DNA of 64,000 nucleotides from Methanobacteriota archaeon (GTDB lineage: Archaea > Thermoplasmatota > Poseidoniia > Poseidoniales > Thalassarchaeaceae): the NCBI GenBank assembly GCA_002718995.2, contig PBGL02000010.1, positions 16,475 to 80,474 of the forward strand, read 5' to 3'. A model generated the notes under the pieces. The model made no database searches, was not told where the DNA came from, and saw nothing but the letters and a program-made list of their open reading frames with translations. Below are positions 52,328 to 61,021 of the stretch, piece by piece. How positions within the stretch are numbered: the first letter of the stretch is position 1; every line of letters begins with the position of its first letter. The position numbers and the translations under genes are program-made.

Positions 52328-54379
52328 ATGGACGGAGAACAACTAGGAATGTATGGAATGATAGCGGGCCTTTTGGGCCTTGTAGTCGCATTCATGCTCT
52401 ATAGAAAGGTGGATTCGATTGAGATTGAGAACAAAACAGTGGCAAAAATCACTGAACGAATACAAGACGGTGCTATGGCATTCATGGTGGCCGAGTACAG
52501 AATGCTTGCCGTATTCATAGCCGTCGTTGCAGCACTTCTGTTCATCGGTGGGAACTACAACGATGATCTCGGTATGGAGACCACTGTTGCATTCATCATT
52601 GGTGCACTTTGCAGTGGCGCAGCTGGGTTCAGCGGTATGCGCGCGGCAACGAGCGCGAACGGTCGGACTGCACAGGCTGCGGCTAGCGGCGGGCAGGCAG
52701 CTGCACTCACCACGTCATACAACGGAGGGGCCGTTATGGGCCTCGCAGTCGGTGGACTGGGTCTTTTCGGGATCTCAATGATGTACTACTTCACAGAAAC
52801 TGAGTTCCTTTCCGTAGGCAACATCGCAGGATTCGGCATGGGTGCATCGTCCATCGCACTCTTCGCCCGTGTTGGCGGTGGAATCTACACGAAGGCTGCT
52901 GACGTGGGAGCCGACCTTGTAGGAAAGGTCGAAGCTGGAATTCCAGAGGACGATCCTCGAAATCCTGGTGTTATCGCAGATAACGTCGGTGACAACGTCG
53001 GCGATGTAGCTGGCATGGGCGCTGATATCTTCGAGTCTTTCGTTGGCTCAATAATTGCAGCCATGGTAATCGCCGCGGCGAGCAGTGAATTGGGGGCGGA
53101 CTACCTGAAGATTCCAATCGCACTAGCCATTGTCGGATACTTGGCATCTATTATCGGCGTATTCTCGATTTCAGCGATGAAGAACATGGATGCTGGTGCA
53201 GCTCTCAGGAACACTACGTTCATCGGGGCAGGACTTTTCATCGGAGGAGGATATCTCGCCTTGGGCGAGTTAGGACTAGATCAGACAGTAGTTTGGGCGG
53301 TTGCCATTGGCAGCGTTGTAGGCATTCTAATCGGCCTAGTTACCGAATATTACACTGGCATAGAGCCTGTATTTGGGTTCCAAGTCAAGGCCATCCCCTA
53401 CATCGGCGAAGCCTCAAAGACCGGAAGTGCGACCAATGCCATCGCCGGCCTTGCAGTTGGAATGGAGTCTGTATTGATCCCAGTTCTTCTGATGGCTGCT
53501 GGAATTTATGGTGCCAATGATGTGATGGGTGGTGGCGACGCTGGCCTATACGGGATCGCAATGGCTGCGATGGGAATGCTAGGTACTGTTGGTGTTACCA
53601 TGACTGTGGACGCCTACGGGCCAGTGGCTGATAACGCAGGAGGAATCGCGGAGATGTCAGGACTGGGCAAAGAAGTACGCGATATCACTGACGGGCTAGA
53701 TTCGATTGGGAACACCACTGCTGCGATCGGAAAGGGGTTCGCTATCGGAAGCGCGGCCCTAACAGCTCTGGCCCTGTTTGCGGCCTACAAGACGAGCGCC
53801 GGCTTGGATGCTGCTGCTCTCTCCCTAACTAACCCAGAGGTAGTGATTGGGCTCCTTATCGGTGGCGCTCTTCCATTCGTAGTGGCTGCAATGACGATGA
53901 AGTCTGTCGGCCGTGCTGCTGAAGCAATGATTGTGGAGATTCGCAGGCAATTCAGGGAGATAGATGGCCTTCTTGAGGGCAGAGAGGGCGTCGAGCCGGA
54001 CAGCGCCACATGCGTAGACATCTCGACACAGGCCGCTCTGCGTGAGATGGTGATGCCCGGACTAGTGGCAATCTCAAGCCCGGTCATAATCGGCCTGGCA
54101 CTAGGGCCAGCTGCACTCGGAGGAACTCTAGCAGGGGCCACTGCTACTGGCGTCCTCATGGCCCTCTTCATGGCCAACGCTGGCGGTGCTTGGGACAATG
54201 CAAAGAAGGCTATCGAGCAGGGCGAGATATCCGGCGCGGAAAAGGGCGATGATGCCCACTCGGCAGCGGTTGTTGGAGATACCATTGGCGATCCCTTCAA
54301 GGACACCAGCGGACCATCGCTGAACATTCTGATCAAGCTCATGTCGATTGTTTCAGTCGTTATTGCTGGCCTTCTTTGA
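52328..54379 (+). CDS. hppA: Membrane ion-pumping pyrophosphatase, K+-dependent type
   Basis: 683 residues, about 15-16 membrane spans. Couples pyrophosphate hydrolysis to export of H+ or Na+. The substrate-binding region [35 protein letters not shown] is clear when read in segments (bases 52895-53000). The [10 protein letters not shown] motif (from about 53711) carries Ala and Gly where K+-independent enzymes have Lys and Thr, so it should need K+. The transported ion cannot be told. Confidence 0.95.
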
Positions 54380-54410
54380 GCACATACGTATTGCGTCAGT
54401 CTCTTGACTG

Positions 54411-54430
54411 TGTGCCTCGACGGAGGCACA
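54411..54430 (+). promoter_or_regulatory. Hairpin overlapping the lipoprotein start codon
   Basis: Perfect 8-base inverted repeat TGTGCCTC/GAGGCACA with a 4-base loop; its last base is the A of the ATG at 54430. It may end transcription from hppA (stop 31 bases upstream), or block translation of the lipoprotein gene. Confidence 0.5.
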
Positions 54431-55389
54431 TGCGGAGTACCACTGCCATGGGCATGGCGTTCTTGCTTCTTGCTTGTATGATGCCTGGTTGCATAGAGAC
54501 GGGCAACTCCAGCAGTAGCGCAGATGCGGCCCCGGTGGAGGCTCCGATATGGAATGTGGGTGACTGGTGGCTGTACACTTTCTCTACGCCCGAGTACAGT
54601 GACGACACTGCGAGGTTGGTCGTAGCTTCGGACTCTGAGGAGGGGGGGACAGCTTACATGTTAGCAATTTCCAGCATAGGGGAGGCCCGAAGGCACGCAG
54701 TGCTGAACCACAACCCATTCCTTGGAAGAATAACCCATGAAGACCTCTCTGCGTTCGAGAACGGAGTGCCTCAGCCAGTTCTAGACTTCCCGCTCGTCGA
54801 GGGTGCTGGATGGGGATTCACGCTATTCTCAACAGAGTGGTATGCCAGCGTCCGCACTGTTACAGGAGGCGTAGCTGTGATGGAAGCTGAGGCCTCGGAT
54901 GGATCTACCCTGGAGTATGTCTATGACTCGTCTTCGAAGTTCTTCTCATCATTCATATGGACTGATTCGTCTGGAGTTGTTCAACTGAGGATGATGCTTG
55001 CTGATGATGGGGAATCTCACTCAGGTGACGTCTACTTCGTAAGAGGTGGCGACCTATACTCCAACACTTGGGACGAGTCTGGCCCAGATATTGAGTTTGA
55101 AGACTCCTTCTTCGTTAGCGACCATCCAAATGATGGTGAGTGGAATGAAATGATCTACTTCCTAGATGCTGCATGCGGGGGAGGCGGGTCGAGCATCACT
55201 CTGACCCTTAGGGATCATGGCTCAATCTCCGCTCTGGAGAGAGTATGGGGCCCCGGAGCGAGCGAGAGTGGGACATTGGGGACCATTCCCTATCCCTCAG
55301 AGGAATACACCCTGACTGCCACCTTCACGGGTGATAGTTACCTCCGTCTGATATTCGCGGGCGGAATAACTCAGTCATGGAGCCTGTGA
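54430..55389 (+). CDS. Lipoprotein of unknown function
   Basis: 319 residues. Signal peptide with lipobox MMPGC. The mature part starts with a Ser/Ala linker, then APIWNVGDWWLYTFSTPEY, a Trp-rich opening also seen in the giant surface protein at 44.4 kb (WRINDRWTYNGEL), suggesting a related beta-rich domain. No enzyme motif. It is followed by an esterase at nine bases. Confidence 0.65.
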   Translation: MRSTTAMGMAFLLLACMMPGCIETGNSSSSADAAPVEAPIWNVGDWWLYTFSTPEYSDDTARLVVASDSEEGGTAYMLAISSIGEARRHAVLNHNPFLGRITHEDLSAFENGVPQPVLDFPLVEGAGWGFTLFSTEWYASVRTVTGGVAVMEAEASDGSTLEYVYDSSSKFFSSFIWTDSSGVVQLRMMLADDGESHSGDVYFVRGGDLYSNTWDESGPDIEFEDSFFVSDHPNDGEWNEMIYFLDAACGGGGSSITLTLRDHGSISALERVWGPGASESGTLGTIPYPSEEYTLTATFTGDSYLRLIFAGGITQSWSL

Positions 55390-55398
55390 GGTGACCGT

Positions 55399-56010
55399 AT
55401 GAGTCAGGGGACTCTGGTGATGATGCATGGCATGACCGGGACGTCCGAAATGATGAGGCCGCTAGCGGAGAGCCTTGCTCCCGATGGGTGGTCTGTGATG
55501 TGCCCCCAAGCGGAAATAGAGCATCCCACCAGAGGTGGCTTTGCATGGTGGCTGAGGGCCGATGACCCAACGCTCCCCCTAGATGAAGAATCACAGGGGC
55601 AGGTGGGCGATTCAATCAAACGAATTCTGGAGGGGCTTCCCGAGGGACCGGTGATTGTTGGGGGATTTTCACAAGGAGGGGCCATAGCATCAGCCCTTCT
55701 GGAGACAGGCTCCCAAGACAGGATATGCGGATTGGTCCTAATCGGGACTAAAACCGTGCGTGCAGAATCACTGAGGGACTCTCTGCCGTTCCTCAAGCCC
55801 CGTCCCATAGCATGGATGCACGGCTCAAGAGATCACCTTGTTCCAATAGAGCATGCCCGTGAACACGCCGATATCTTCGAAGATGCAGGATGGCCGGTAA
55901 CTAGGCTGGAGCATGAGAAAGGCCACATGGTCAACCTAAACCAAATTGAAGAACTCAAGATTGCCGTAAGGGGGATGGCAGAAAATTCTCAGAGATATTC
56001 CAGCAGGTGA
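55399..56010 (+). CDS. Serine esterase (alpha/beta hydrolase)
   Basis: 203 residues, cytosolic. Nucleophile elbow GFSQGG (Ser91), acid in GSRDHLVP and His in HEKGHMVN complete the triad of the phospholipase/carboxylesterase family. GGTGA lies four bases before the ATG. Its end overlaps convergently with the glutaredoxin gene by 22 bases. Confidence 0.85.
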   Translation: MSQGTLVMMHGMTGTSEMMRPLAESLAPDGWSVMCPQAEIEHPTRGGFAWWLRADDPTLPLDEESQGQVGDSIKRILEGLPEGPVIVGGFSQGGAIASALLETGSQDRICGLVLIGTKTVRAESLRDSLPFLKPRPIAWMHGSRDHLVPIEHAREHADIFEDAGWPVTRLEHEKGHMVNLNQIEELKIAVRGMAENSQRYSSR

Positions 56011-56255
56011 TCCGAACCACCTACGAAGATTGGCTTATCTCCTCTTATATCGAAAACGACTGGGACGGTACGATGTCCAGTTACCCTAACCACCTCCTGC
56101 CTGAGGCCGTCGTAATTGTCCAAATTCACCTCTGTGAATGATAAGCCGTTGGCCTCCAAGGTCCTTGCTGCCCTAACGCAGTAGGGACATATCGTCTGGC
56201 TGAAGTACAGGAAGTCCGTTTTAGCGGACTTAAGATGCTCATGAAGAGGGGGCAT
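55989..56255 (-). CDS. Glutaredoxin-like protein
   Basis: 88 residues; thioredoxin fold with CPYC active site (Cys23, Cys26), TVPVVF cis-Pro loop and GGSDHL. Redox partner for small disulfides. The ATG at 56255 has GGTGG five bases upstream and overlaps the end of the protease-permease gene by 17 bases. Confidence 0.85.
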   Translation of the reverse strand: MPPLHEHLKSAKTDFLYFSQTICPYCVRAARTLEANGLSFTEVNLDNYDGLRQEVVRVTGHRTVPVVFDIRGDKPIFVGGSDHLLEYL

Positions 56256-59200
56256 TTTCTCCACCTTCTTCCCACCAGCCATCTGGCGTCTCGCCAATAT
56301 CGCCATCAATCTCTTGGTCATCACTCAGACGGCCTTCAAGAACGCGGTCACATTCATCTGGATCTATGAAGACCAAGAACCAGACCGTGAATAGGGTCAA
56401 TCCCGCCCCAAGATAAAGCGCCGAGATGTAATCAATTATCTCGACCATCGTCCCTGTAAATTGGTATGCGATGACAGCAGATAGGTTGAACATCGACATG
56501 TAAGCTGTGAACTGTGTTCCACCGGCCTTGCTGTATGTCAGCCTCATGGATACGGAGATGATGCATATCCAAGCAATTCCTGTGACAATAGCCCTGAGGC
56601 AAAGATAGACAGTCATTATCGTAGTATTCCCCCAATATGGATTAAGCATGGCGAGTCCGGCATTGCCTAGGGCCAGGAGGGTGAAGCCAACCATGGCGAC
56701 CTCCCGAACACCGAACTTATCCCCTAGGAAACCCCCTAGGATCTGCCCCCCCATCAAGAACAAGATGACTATACCTCCCATGATTCCATTGTACTTCGTC
56801 TGCGTCCAACCTGCCTCGTTGATGAAGATATCAACCACAATTGGGTCCACGAAGACGTACATCTCTGAGAGGAGGCACAGGAAGATGAGTAGGAAGGAGG
56901 ATTTCAGGGAGAAACCCTTGACTATGTTGTAGGCTGGAACTGCAAGCCCGGCCCTAGCAGATTCGCTGAATGGGTTGGAGATTTGGAATTGGGAAATCGC
57001 TGGTAACAGGAACCTGCCTGCCAGAATTCCTGCCAAAGAAAGGAGGAATGCGTACCATCCAATACTCTTGAGTGGCGAACCGATGGTACTGAACACTTCC
57101 TCATTCGAGACGAGGTGAATAATCCCCAGTGCGCCCCCGACTAACAACACGACTATGCTGGCCCAAAGAAGAGCAGCGATGCCTTGTATCCTCTCCCCAT
57201 AAAGATTCTGAGAAACCCAACTAGCGACTCTGAAATCATCCTCGAAATCCCCCTCCCATGGCAGTTCATCGTCCATCTCCACTGATTCTGAATCCCCCGA
57301 TTCAGACCCCTCCCAGAGGCTGTTTCTAGTAGAGGAACTCTGCCATGGGAAAAGGCGATCTCCGGGTCTCTCCCTCAGGAAGAGTGGCAAACACATTATC
57401 AGAGCTAGGAGAGGAAGTTGGACCATTATTGCAGCCTTGATTCCGAAGTCCACTACCAGCATTCCGACCACTGCTCCACCAATGATGATACCTCCTCTCT
57501 TGGCAGCGAACATGAAGCCGTTCGCCTTAGCGACCTCGTCGGGCTGTAGAACATCAACCGCTAATGCGTCAACGCTCACGTCTTGTAGTGAGGAGAACAG
57601 GTTGTGGACGAACAGAATCAGAGTCACTAGTTCTATGGATTCATTGAGGTCCGATACGAACAACAATGCGCCCAGAGTTACTATCATACCAGTTTGAGCA
57701 AAGAGGATCCAAGGCCTCCTGAGGCCATAAGAGGGCATTTGCACTGCATCAACCACTGGACCCCAGATGAATTTGAATGTCCAAGGGAGGGCTATGGTTG
57801 CGAACAGGGCTGCAATCTGATCAGGCGCTGCACCGTTGGAAACTAAGAAAGCAACGAATGTGACCATGGCAAATCCGGCAGGAAGTCCTTGAGCAGTGTA
57901 TAGTATTGAAAGTGAAACATACCGTCTGAATTGGTTCTCAACCAATGTCTCTCCGTCCTTCCAAGACTCTCTAGCGGAGTTCCACCTGCCTGGGATCAGA
58001 CGGGGATCGATTGCTGAGCCGACTTTACTAGTGATCGTGTAGATGCCTCGATTCTCCGATACGACAAGTCGATCTTCGTCCCTGATCTTCGTAATCCATC
58101 GCTCCCTTACCGAAACAATCCCGATAATTGCAATTGAAACTATGAATGGAATCCAGAATACGGACGAAGGGAGGTTCTTGAGATCTCCCGAGGGACCGCT
58201 GGATACGACGCCGTCAACTAGAATGACTCGTCTCGAATCGATTGGCGAAATGCTATCCTCTGACACAAGTAGTCGGGCGTAGATAGTGGAATTGCCTGAC
58301 TGGTCATGGGGATCTAGCTTTACCCTCCACTGACTCCAATCGCCCGACAGGTCCGCTGCGCCCTTCCAAATGCCACCTCCAACGCGAACCTCCACGAGCC
58401 CCATTCCCGGAGCCACTCCCGATGCGGTGCCTGAGATGTATGACTCGTTTCCTATTTGCTGCAGGGTTTCTACGTCCATACTGACATTCAGTGACCTGTC
58501 AATGCTCCCTGCTGCCTCTACGAACGCGACTGGGTCTGCCTGACCGAACCCGAACTCGTTATCCGGACGAGTCTCGAGAATGCTACAATCATTGAAGCCT
58601 GGGTCGCCCAGAAGCTGGAGGTCCCTCTCTATGGAGTGGGCTGAGATAATGTCCTTGAACTCGGTTGGAGTGATATCCGGGTTGGCCTCAACCATCAGAG
58701 CAGCAATTCCTGCCATCAGGGGAGTGGCCATACTAGTCCCAGACTTGCTTGTGTAGCCATCGCTGGTAGCTGCGTCGGGAGCCATGATGCTTGAGCCGAT
58801 TGTCGCTACGTCTGGCTTCACCCTGCCATCTGAAGTGTATCCGCGACTACTGTATATCGCAAGCCCTAGGTCCTTGTCCAAGCTTGCTACGGTAACAGGT
58901 AGATTTGCGTCTCCTGGACTGTCTATGGTGTTGCACCCAGCGAAAGTCGCCCCTCCGAATTCGTTACCGGCAGATAGTGTGGTGATTATTCCGGCCTCGA
59001 CCACGGAGTCCATCTGTCGGCTCCATGCTGAGCTTCCATCGTTGTCGAAGTGTATCTCAAGCTGCTGCTCCCCCAGAGATGAAGTTACTATGTCGATTCC
59101 GTACTTATCCTTGTTTTCAATCGCCCACTGAGCTCCTTGGATTACATCCTCAATGTCACCATCACAGCATGCGAGGAGGTTGATCAAGAATGCTCCCGGA

Positions 59201-60057
59201 GCAGCTCCAATGTACTTCAGACCAGAAGTCGGATCTACTTGGCCGCCCCCAGTTCCAGCGGCTATTCCAGCGACGTGGCTACCGTGCGTTCCAGAGTCGT
59301 AAGAGGTAGATGGGTCTTGCTCCGAGTCTGTGAAAACTGAGTCGTAGAATGCAATTATCTTTGGATCACAATCAATTGGTATGGGATTAGGATTAGTTGG
59401 ATCGGGGTCTGGCTGTTCACAGCCCATTGTGAATGGTTCGTCATCCATATCGTTGAGTCCCTCGTGATCCCCCCTTACACCCGTGTCGAGGATGGCGACA
59501 ACTGATCCCGTACCGTCGAATCCGAAGTCGTTCCAAACTTGGTCGACGCCCATATTTGGGGCCGCCTCGTGCATATTTGGCTCGGCGAGTCCCAAATCCT
59601 CGATCATGACAACACCTGGCAGAGAAAGGATTCCATTCTCAGAAAGTATTGAGTTGAAGGGCGCGGTTGCAGTCACGGTGTCAAGGTATTTCGGACGAAA
59701 TGTGACTTGGACCCCTAATTCCTCGAGTGCTGAGACGTCTGCATCAGTCGGATGGTGATTGTAGTCTACGAAAATCCTCGCACTGCCCTCGGGAGCCCTC
59801 CTCCACCAGTCCTGCTGCACCTCCACTGGTTGGCCCAATAGCCACTCAAGGCGATCATCCAGAGAGTCTGAGTCCTTGTCCCTGCTCCAGTGAGTCCACC
59901 ATTCGGAATGCAGTTCGGACTCCACGCTGAGAATCCATTTTCCATCAGCATCTAGTCCGCCCTTACCCTGCTCAAGAGGGGTAATCGAGGAAGCGGCTAG
60001 TGGGAGGATGAAGAGTAGAACCAACGCAGATGCGATAGCCGAAGAACGCCCCACCAT
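56239..60057 (-). CDS. Fusion of secreted subtilisin-like protease and MFS permease
   Basis: 1272 residues. Signal peptide (1-22); an Asp-rich linker (DKDSDSLDD) and propeptide-like region; S8 peptidase domain with Asp191 (ILDTGV), His258 (THGSHVAG), oxyanion Asn365 (SAGN) and Ser442 (GTSMATP); a beta domain (about 525-615); one span (634-650); a cytosolic linker; and an AmpG/PAT-like MFS permease (about 710-1230: YTAQGLPAGF, FKFIWGPVVD, SLQDVSVDALAVDVL). Topology is coherent: protease outside, permease in the membrane. No stop or second start interrupts the joint. Likely degrades peptides or cell-wall-like polymers and imports a product (inference). Confidence 0.85.
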   Translation of the reverse strand: MVGRSSAIASALVLLFILPLAASSITPLEQGKGGLDADGKWILSVESELHSEWWTHWSRDKDSDSLDDRLEWLLGQPVEVQQDWWRRAPEGSARIFVDYNHHPTDADVSALEELGVQVTFRPKYLDTVTATAPFNSILSENGILSLPGVVMIEDLGLAEPNMHEAAPNMGVDQVWNDFGFDGTGSVVAILDTGVRGDHEGLNDMDDEPFTMGCEQPDPDPTNPNPIPIDCDPKIIAFYDSVFTDSEQDPSTSYDSGTHGSHVAGIAAGTGGGQVDPTSGLKYIGAAPGAFLINLLACCDGDIEDVIQGAQWAIENKDKYGIDIVTSSLGEQQLEIHFDNDGSSAWSRQMDSVVEAGIITTLSAGNEFGGATFAGCNTIDSPGDANLPVTVASLDKDLGLAIYSSRGYTSDGRVKPDVATIGSSIMAPDAATSDGYTSKSGTSMATPLMAGIAALMVEANPDITPTEFKDIISAHSIERDLQLLGDPGFNDCSILETRPDNEFGFGQADPVAFVEAAGSIDRSLNVSMDVETLQQIGNESYISGTASGVAPGMGLVEVRVGGGIWKGAADLSGDWSQWRVKLDPHDQSGNSTIYARLLVSEDSISPIDSRRVILVDGVVSSGPSGDLKNLPSSVFWIPFIVSIAIIGIVSVRERWITKIRDEDRLVVSENRGIYTITSKVGSAIDPRLIPGRWNSARESWKDGETLVENQFRRYVSLSILYTAQGLPAGFAMVTFVAFLVSNGAAPDQIAALFATIALPWTFKFIWGPVVDAVQMPSYGLRRPWILFAQTGMIVTLGALLFVSDLNESIELVTLILFVHNLFSSLQDVSVDALAVDVLQPDEVAKANGFMFAAKRGGIIIGGAVVGMLVVDFGIKAAIMVQLPLLALIMCLPLFLRERPGDRLFPWQSSSTRNSLWEGSESGDSESVEMDDELPWEGDFEDDFRVASWVSQNLYGERIQGIAALLWASIVVLLVGGALGIIHLVSNEEVFSTIGSPLKSIGWYAFLLSLAGILAGRFLLPAISQFQISNPFSESARAGLAVPAYNIVKGFSLKSSFLLIFLCLLSEMYVFVDPIVVDIFINEAGWTQTKYNGIMGGIVILFLMGGQILGGFLGDKFGVREVAMVGFTLLALGNAGLAMLNPYWGNTTIMTVYLCLRAIVTGIAWICIISVSMRLTYSKAGGTQFTAYMSMFNLSAVIAYQFTGTMVEIIDYISALYLGAGLTLFTVWFLVFIDPDECDRVLEGRLSDDQEIDGDIGETPDGWWEEGGENAPSS

Positions 60058-60094: not shown

Positions 60095-60946
60095 CTAGAG
60101 TATCCTAACTCCTTCATCCTCATAATCCCAATCCAGTACCTCCCAATCGGATAATTTCAGTATATTTCGTACATCTTGAGTACTTGATGGATGACATATC
60201 AAGGCAGCAAATCCTCCACCTCCGGCACCTACTGCCTTCCAAGAGGAAACCATACCTGAGTCAATGAGTGGGGACACTTCCTCCCTGAAGGGCTCATGGA
60301 TTTCAGGATCGATAATGTCAACTCCTTCCGAGGTTTCTCTCATCGATTTGACTATCAAGTCTCTTCTATCCTGCTGGAGTCCAGTAGCCATGCCCCTGAC
60401 AGCTGAACGTACGATATTCAGCCCCTCAATTACGTCCTTATCCCCCTCTGCATATCTGGACCAGACCGACTCATGCAGATCTCCTGACTTCCTAGTGATT
60501 CCTGAATTTACCAGCAATAGGTGCTTACGCAGCCAAACTCTGGATGACTTCATTGGCTCAAAGGGCATACGCTCAACTCTTTCACCGAAGAAAATTAGAT
60601 GGTTGAATCCGCCTAAGGCGGATGCCCACTGATCTTGCCTGCCCCCCAGGTTGCCTGCTTCTGCTTCTGCTTGGTAGGCGGCCTCTGCTATGCTTTCTGG
60701 AGAGTCGTCTGGAGATGAGAGGGCTGCCATGGCAACATTCATTGCACCACTTGAACCAAGTCCTGAACCGGCAGGAACTCCAAAGGAGAAGCTTACTGAT
60801 GGCCCATTGGATGTTGCTCTTACGTACCCATCAATGGCGAAGTTTACCACCTCCCCTCCGAAATCCCGGGTATAGGGGGGAACATCGGTCCAACCTCCAG
60901 CTAAGTCAACTCTGACGGGGGCAATGGCCTCTCTTTTACCCACCAT
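60095..60946 (-). CDS. GHMP-family sugar kinase
   Basis: 283 residues. RVDLAGGWTDVPPY at the N terminus is typical of the heptose-7-phosphate/fucose kinase branch; the ATP loop PAGSGLGSSGA (58-68) and GAGGGGFAAL are present. Substrate unknown. The ATG at 60946 gives the family-typical start. It diverges from the ribB operon. Confidence 0.8.
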   Translation of the reverse strand: MVGKREAIAPVRVDLAGGWTDVPPYTRDFGGEVVNFAIDGYVRATSNGPSVSFSFGVPAGSGLGSSGAMNVAMAALSSPDDSPESIAEAAYQAEAEAGNLGGRQDQWASALGGFNHLIFFGERVERMPFEPMKSSRVWLRKHLLLVNSGITRKSGDLHESVWSRYAEGDKDVIEGLNIVRSAVRGMATGLQQDRRDLIVKSMRETSEGVDIIDPEIHEPFREEVSPLIDSGMVSSWKAVGAGGGGFAALICHPSSTQDVRNILKLSDWEVLDWDYEDEGVRIL

Positions 60947-61021
60947 GATGTGCTGCCGCCAGCGTATGCAGATGAGAATGATTCGGTTCGCAGATGCCAT
61001 GACCGAAAATAAGGGGTATGA

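Follow-up and report, generated by a model that had tools for sequence, protein, structure and literature searches.

The nearest known analogue of a protease fused to a major facilitator superfamily (MFS) permease is found in Dictyostelium, where the Tag proteins (TagA/B/C) combine a serine protease and an ABC transporter in one chain, with a linked function proposed for the two parts (PMC3743828). Like the fusion described here, they present the protease outside on a transporter chain; they are, however, ABC exporters of eukaryotic developmental signalling, whereas the present chain contains an MFS permease. We know of no head exchange among Tag proteins. Other transporters bear attached extracellular capture domains, namely ABC importers with fused binding domains and 4F2hc/LAT1. 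There, as would be the case here, a surface domain feeds or assists the transporter; no MFS permease with a protease head is among these systems, and we know of no similar swapping of unrelated heads at a single locus in them.

Marine Group II archaea rank with the most abundant archaea of the ocean and are thought to live on proteins. Passages of two studies describe them as users of extracellular protein and report their protease genes, subtilase included, to be highly transcribed (PMC9723583, PMC6336850); S8-MFS fusions are not mentioned in those passages. One study of fusion proteins in archaea includes transporters among its lineage-specific families of fusions, Poseidoniales being among the contributors (PMC11237513); the terms searched in it returned no protease-permease architecture. 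Our literature search, with most subscription papers outside its scope, returned no description of a protease-MFS fusion in these archaea. The remark in the initial annotation that no described system of this kind was known needs narrowing with respect to S8-ABC fusions, which are known from Dictyostelium (PMC3743828).

In the window (the whole 64,000-nucleotide stretch of DNA that was analysed), a single uninterrupted ATG frame on the minus strand (56239..60057) encodes a complete S8 protease-MFS permease fusion of 1272 aa; all parts named below lie on the same strand. The chain starts with a signal sequence (residues 1-25; 59983..60057) that has its hydrophobic peak at residue 7 and an acidic ectodomain after it, hydropathy and AlphaFold2 both placing a signal helix at 7-25. 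There follow a propeptide-like alpha/beta region (residues ~26-160; 59578..59982), in which predicted strands and helices alternate at ~92-154, a Peptidase S8 catalytic domain recognised by Pfam (residues 182-505; 58543..59514), and a small beta domain seen as AlphaFold2 strands (residues ~520-615; 58213..58500). A single membrane span (residues 632-651; 58105..58164; hydropathy and an AlphaFold2 helix) and a variable cytosolic linker of ~57 aa, the least conserved stretch of the protein (residues 652-708; 57934..58104), connect the protease to an AmpG/SLC33-type MFS permease with 14 predicted spans (residues ~709-1231; 56365..57933; Pfam, fold and AlphaFold2). The ectodomain is strongly acidic (33 K/R versus 96 D/E). 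The initial annotation had read the frame as an exported S8 protease joined to a permease, with the protease outside, one span and a cytosolic linker; the ATG frame and Pfam confirm the former, and the topology holds by hydropathy and AlphaFold2. The AlphaFold2 model of the full fusion has a mean pLDDT of 75.7 and an overall pTM of 0.51, a value too low for the model to fix where the protease sits relative to the permease.

Peptidase_S8 (PF00082) scores 143.8 bits against a cut-off of 21.8. The catalytic residues D191 (59485-59487), H258 (59284-59286) and S442 (58732-58734) and the oxyanion N365 (58963-58965), listed as a complete set in the initial annotation, are identical in 46 of 46 aligned sequences (42 fused and 4 free-standing). 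Foldseek returned the pro-form subtilase ProN-Tk-SP (3afg) as best match of the protease part, in agreement with the sequence search; this likeness to a Tk-SP-type archaeal subtilase includes the N-terminal propeptide, suggesting that the alpha/beta region of the fusion may act as one. Unlike the fusion, the solved Tk-SP entry is without a fused permease. A second S8 protease, without permease and 34-38% identical (L032:3114-5117; G000:C15:27500-28894), is present in most relatives searched; in three genomes where protease and permease are split it adjoins the free S8 gene described below.

From residue ~711 onwards, the Pfam models MFS_1 (79.1 bits), BT1 (48.4 bits) and Acatn (35.9 bits) all exceed their cut-offs; the Pfam families in the chain are S8 and MFS only, with no ABC transporter module. 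The best NCBIfam match is an AmpG subfamily model, far under its cut-off. As the scores stay below the curated AmpG cut-offs (TIGR00901, 114 versus 350 bits; NF008238, 46.7 versus 756; NF008867, 52.3 versus 656), the cargo is not readable from the family name. Foldseek matched the permease to AmpG (9j9z, 8zbb and 8zgz; probability 1.00), with a TM-score of 0.68 by target length for 8zgz, and to SLC33A1 (9m0s, with acetyl-CoA, and 9mun, with oxidised glutathione), and sequence searches agree on both, so that the earlier AmpG/PAT-type assignment is upheld by Pfam and fold. AmpG and SLC33A1 (PAT-type MFS) have the fold and conserved N-half motifs in common with the permease but, unlike it, have no exported head. 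Counted from AlphaFold2 helices, the 14 permease spans are arranged as 6+2+6, and helices of the same model form an extra hairpin inside the permease (residues 959-1016; 57010-57183). The number of spans matches the 14 of E. coli AmpG. Characterised AmpG, RhtX/FptX and SLC33A1 relatives carry cargo toward the cytosol. Archaea have no bacterial peptidoglycan, and the cargo here thus differs from that of AmpG or is foreign. Plain headless permeases, 48-50% identical over the N-half, occur in marine Verrucomicrobia, and headless paralogues exist in the sister family, implying that the head was added to a permease able to stand alone.

The permease gene is single copy in the source genome (1.48 Mb, incomplete). 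A frame across the joint is present in every one of the 16 genomes that represent the genus and in most of the family's other genera, and ~40 fused ORFs stand in public genome records under Ca. Thalassarchaeum, Thalassarchaeaceae and other Marine Group II. Among these records is isolate AG-422-I18 (locus L153), which we take, by its name, to be a single-cell genome; the genomes compared are mostly incomplete MAGs. Besides Ca. Thalassarchaeaceae (Marine Group IIb), a second family of the class (f3) has the fusion: five of its genomes have the permease in frames of 1168-1206 aa, with an S8 head in all four ORFs read. A search of viral contigs for the fusion gave no match.

Permeases of other genera that are not fused to S8 carry their own exported domain and span, and every clade permease readable to its N-terminus has a surface head and membrane span in the same span-plus-linker layout. 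BLAST clustering of the N-terminal parts resolved five kinds of head, S8, M28, cupredoxin, YFWG and LIPO, in counts that rest on an uneven genome sample; YFWG and LIPO are our working names for two unnamed beta domains, the latter bearing a lipobox. The M28 peptidase head (PF04389) is joined to the permease at the same position in three genomes, each from a different genus, and has the signature metal-ligand motifs, except for unread bases in one sequence. Cupredoxin heads (PF00127 in the example scanned) retain type-1 copper ligand motifs. Cupredoxin-permease fusions were seen at L104, L075 and L094, the L104 permease being closest to a LIPO-headed one. Profile comparison gave no support for a shared ancestry of YFWG and LIPO heads (2.6% probability), and neither had a solved-structure relative at E up to 10; in an AlphaFold2 prediction of a YFWG-headed permease, built with only two relatives, the head was poorly modelled. 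The N-terminal extension of a Gemmatimonadales ORF, considered as a bacterial head, was judged by eye not to be a real one.

With head labels fixed ahead of any tree building, permease-only trees under LG+G4 and under a mixture model both need at least nine head changes, compared with a minimum of four; long deep branches in places make the exact count of changes less secure than the exchange itself. In AU tests, monophyly was rejected for permeases with S8 heads (p 9e-135), YFWG heads (p 9e-6) and LIPO heads (p 7e-5), but not for those with M28 heads (p 0.13). They show that same-head permeases do not form one clade, gain and loss being indistinguishable by these tests. The exchange is visible at a fixed place: the family keeps the gene order PPase, lipoprotein, (hydrolase), glutaredoxin, permease, GHMP kinase, ribB, ribL, and most genomes have an S8 head at this syntenic locus, with YFWG in its stead in parts of genera g4, g7 and g11. 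Beside the M28-headed permease of L077 (genus g3) lie PPase, lipoprotein, hydrolase and glutaredoxin, and beside that of L044 (a sister-family genome, g17) lie PPase, lipoprotein and glutaredoxin. Across relatives, one conserved permease exchanges unrelated surface domains. The lipoprotein-like protein, encoded in the window at 54376-55389 on the plus strand, has no Pfam or NCBIfam match and is conserved beside the permease and a membrane pyrophosphatase across the family.

A free S8 gene (71-76% identity) lies elsewhere in eight of the 13 YFWG-headed genomes, in four of these eight ~14 kb off on the same contig; the five genomes without a match may be incomplete assemblies. In the S8 tree, the free genes nest among fused S8s at two separate places, suggesting that they split off twice from fused ancestors. 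Free YFWG proteins of 270-300 aa are encoded in the same genomes, the source genome included, implying that a donor cassette is at hand. The C-terminal tail of such proteins (L211:4040-4867 (G000:C23); L212-L215) resembles a PGF-CTERM sorting signal, and their genes adjoin FtsZ-like and HisRS-like genes in several genomes (N-termini read by eye).

From the single frame, catalytic residues, architecture, conservation and syntenic head exchange established by computation, we infer that the fusion is a single-chain surface protease-importer within an exchangeable-head family, at a probability of roughly 0.55; protease activity, the direction and cargo of transport, and the coupling of cutting to uptake are the conjectural parts of this reading. 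The signal sequence would export the subtilase, which probably matures by removal of its propeptide and would remain anchored by one span, the short cytosolic linker then running into the 14-span AmpG/SLC33-type permease. At the cell surface, the protease would cut proteins or glycopeptides, and the permease would import the small product before it is lost by diffusion. A chain of this design would suggest a testable way in which an uncultured cell might retain what its surface proteases release, by 'selfish' uptake with little diffusion loss.

The presence of peptidases of two unrelated folds, S8 and M28, on an importer-type permease favours cutting coupled to uptake. Counting against it, no proteolytic role is known for the cupredoxin, YFWG or LIPO heads; as non-peptidase heads exist, cutting is not the head's general role. 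The eight genomes with a free S8 and a YFWG-headed permease further imply that covalent coupling is dispensable. Cut-and-import in one chain, suggested in the initial annotation, is plausible and gains strength from the M28 head on the same permease, yet without the S8 link being obligatory. We see cut-and-import as one form of a broader architecture based on head exchange, in which the head, exchangeable on one permease, would determine what is captured or released; its general role may be capture or release at the permease mouth. Going further, we consider it possible, at rather less than even odds, that marine archaea of this class evolved a family of MFS importers by fitting one permease, often at a fixed locus, in turn with an endoprotease, an M28 enzyme of aminopeptidase type, a copper protein or unnamed beta domains, the protease-headed forms cutting and importing in one chain. 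Head exchange would then suggest a family of feeding machines with swappable heads in uncultured marine archaea. It also amounts to a natural domain-swap experiment, and comparing S8, M28, copper and unnamed-head lineages could reveal the permease's shared cargo and the contribution of each head.

Head and permease might instead work independently, the permease giving the head no more than a membrane anchor and shared expression. That the heads are of unrelated kinds, non-enzymes among them, would fit such an arrangement, as would the free anchored YFWG proteins in the same genomes and the two lineages in which S8 became a separate membrane-anchored protein and persisted, the other-headed permease being a gene of its own; these lineages indicate that the covalent S8 link is not essential. 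Mere anchoring, however, does not predict the recruitment of peptidases of two unrelated folds, nor does it sit well with the retention of a head, in unchanged layout, by all clade permeases whose N-termini could be read. We regard independent action as rather unlikely.

The neighbouring genes raise a different alternative to the protease-importer. A GHMP sugar kinase gene (heptose/fucokinase-like; 60095..61000, minus strand) lies in the same direction 37 bp upstream of the fusion and is found in that position next to the permease in most of the family's loci examined, and a glutaredoxin gene (55989..56255, minus strand), likewise in the same direction, overlaps the permease 3' end. The kinase would suit a glycopeptide or sugar product and the glutaredoxin a disulfide cargo, both as neighbourhood hints and not as evidence of cargo. 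The head could serve the gating or scavenging of a small non-digestion cargo, for example a disulfide peptide or metal-binding compound, with glutaredoxin reducing the imported disulfide. Consistent with this, the glutaredoxin gene adjoins the permease under S8, YFWG and M28 heads, the cupredoxin heads keep their copper ligand motifs, and SLC33A1, of the same broad family and matched here by sequence and fold, is reported to move oxidised glutathione (PMC12889552). Both neighbourhood hints, the kinase and the glutaredoxin, are nevertheless largely confined to the source family, glutaredoxin was not seen beside most sister-family or third-family permeases among the loci examined, and gene neighbourhood alone is a weak guide; we consider a gating or scavenging role improbable.

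A still fainter prospect is that the permease exports a precursor which the protease cuts outside, as in the Dictyostelium Tag proteins. Single-chain S8-transporter fusions tied to signal processing and export have been described (PMC3743828), but the characterised relatives of the permease work toward the cytosol, as set out above, and no precursor gene was recognised adjoining the fusion.

The joint itself was compared as the stretch between conserved anchors (residues 611-716) among 42 fused ORFs. It spans 64-124 aa in 16 different lengths and never contains a stop; an untranslated joint would be expected to collect stops and frameshifts. With fused ORFs in two families and the joint open throughout, homologues are not always two separate genes and no stop was lost at the joint, the two findings by which the initial annotation would have been overturned; a lost stop or chimeric assembly is ruled out. 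That assembly or annotation misread two genes as one is a negligible prospect given at least 42 non-identical fused ORFs from two families, with 16 joint lengths and assemblies by several groups, even though a frame broken inside the S8 part of one related genome shows that such errors happen. In that genome, a Red Sea MAG (L188:6001-7619), the S8 frame is in two pieces of 301 and 241 aa, probably through an assembly frameshift. A record titled Candidatus Neomarinimicrobiota (L163) carries an archaeal S8-permease fusion with 68% identity to that of the window, and its contig is likely mis-binned.
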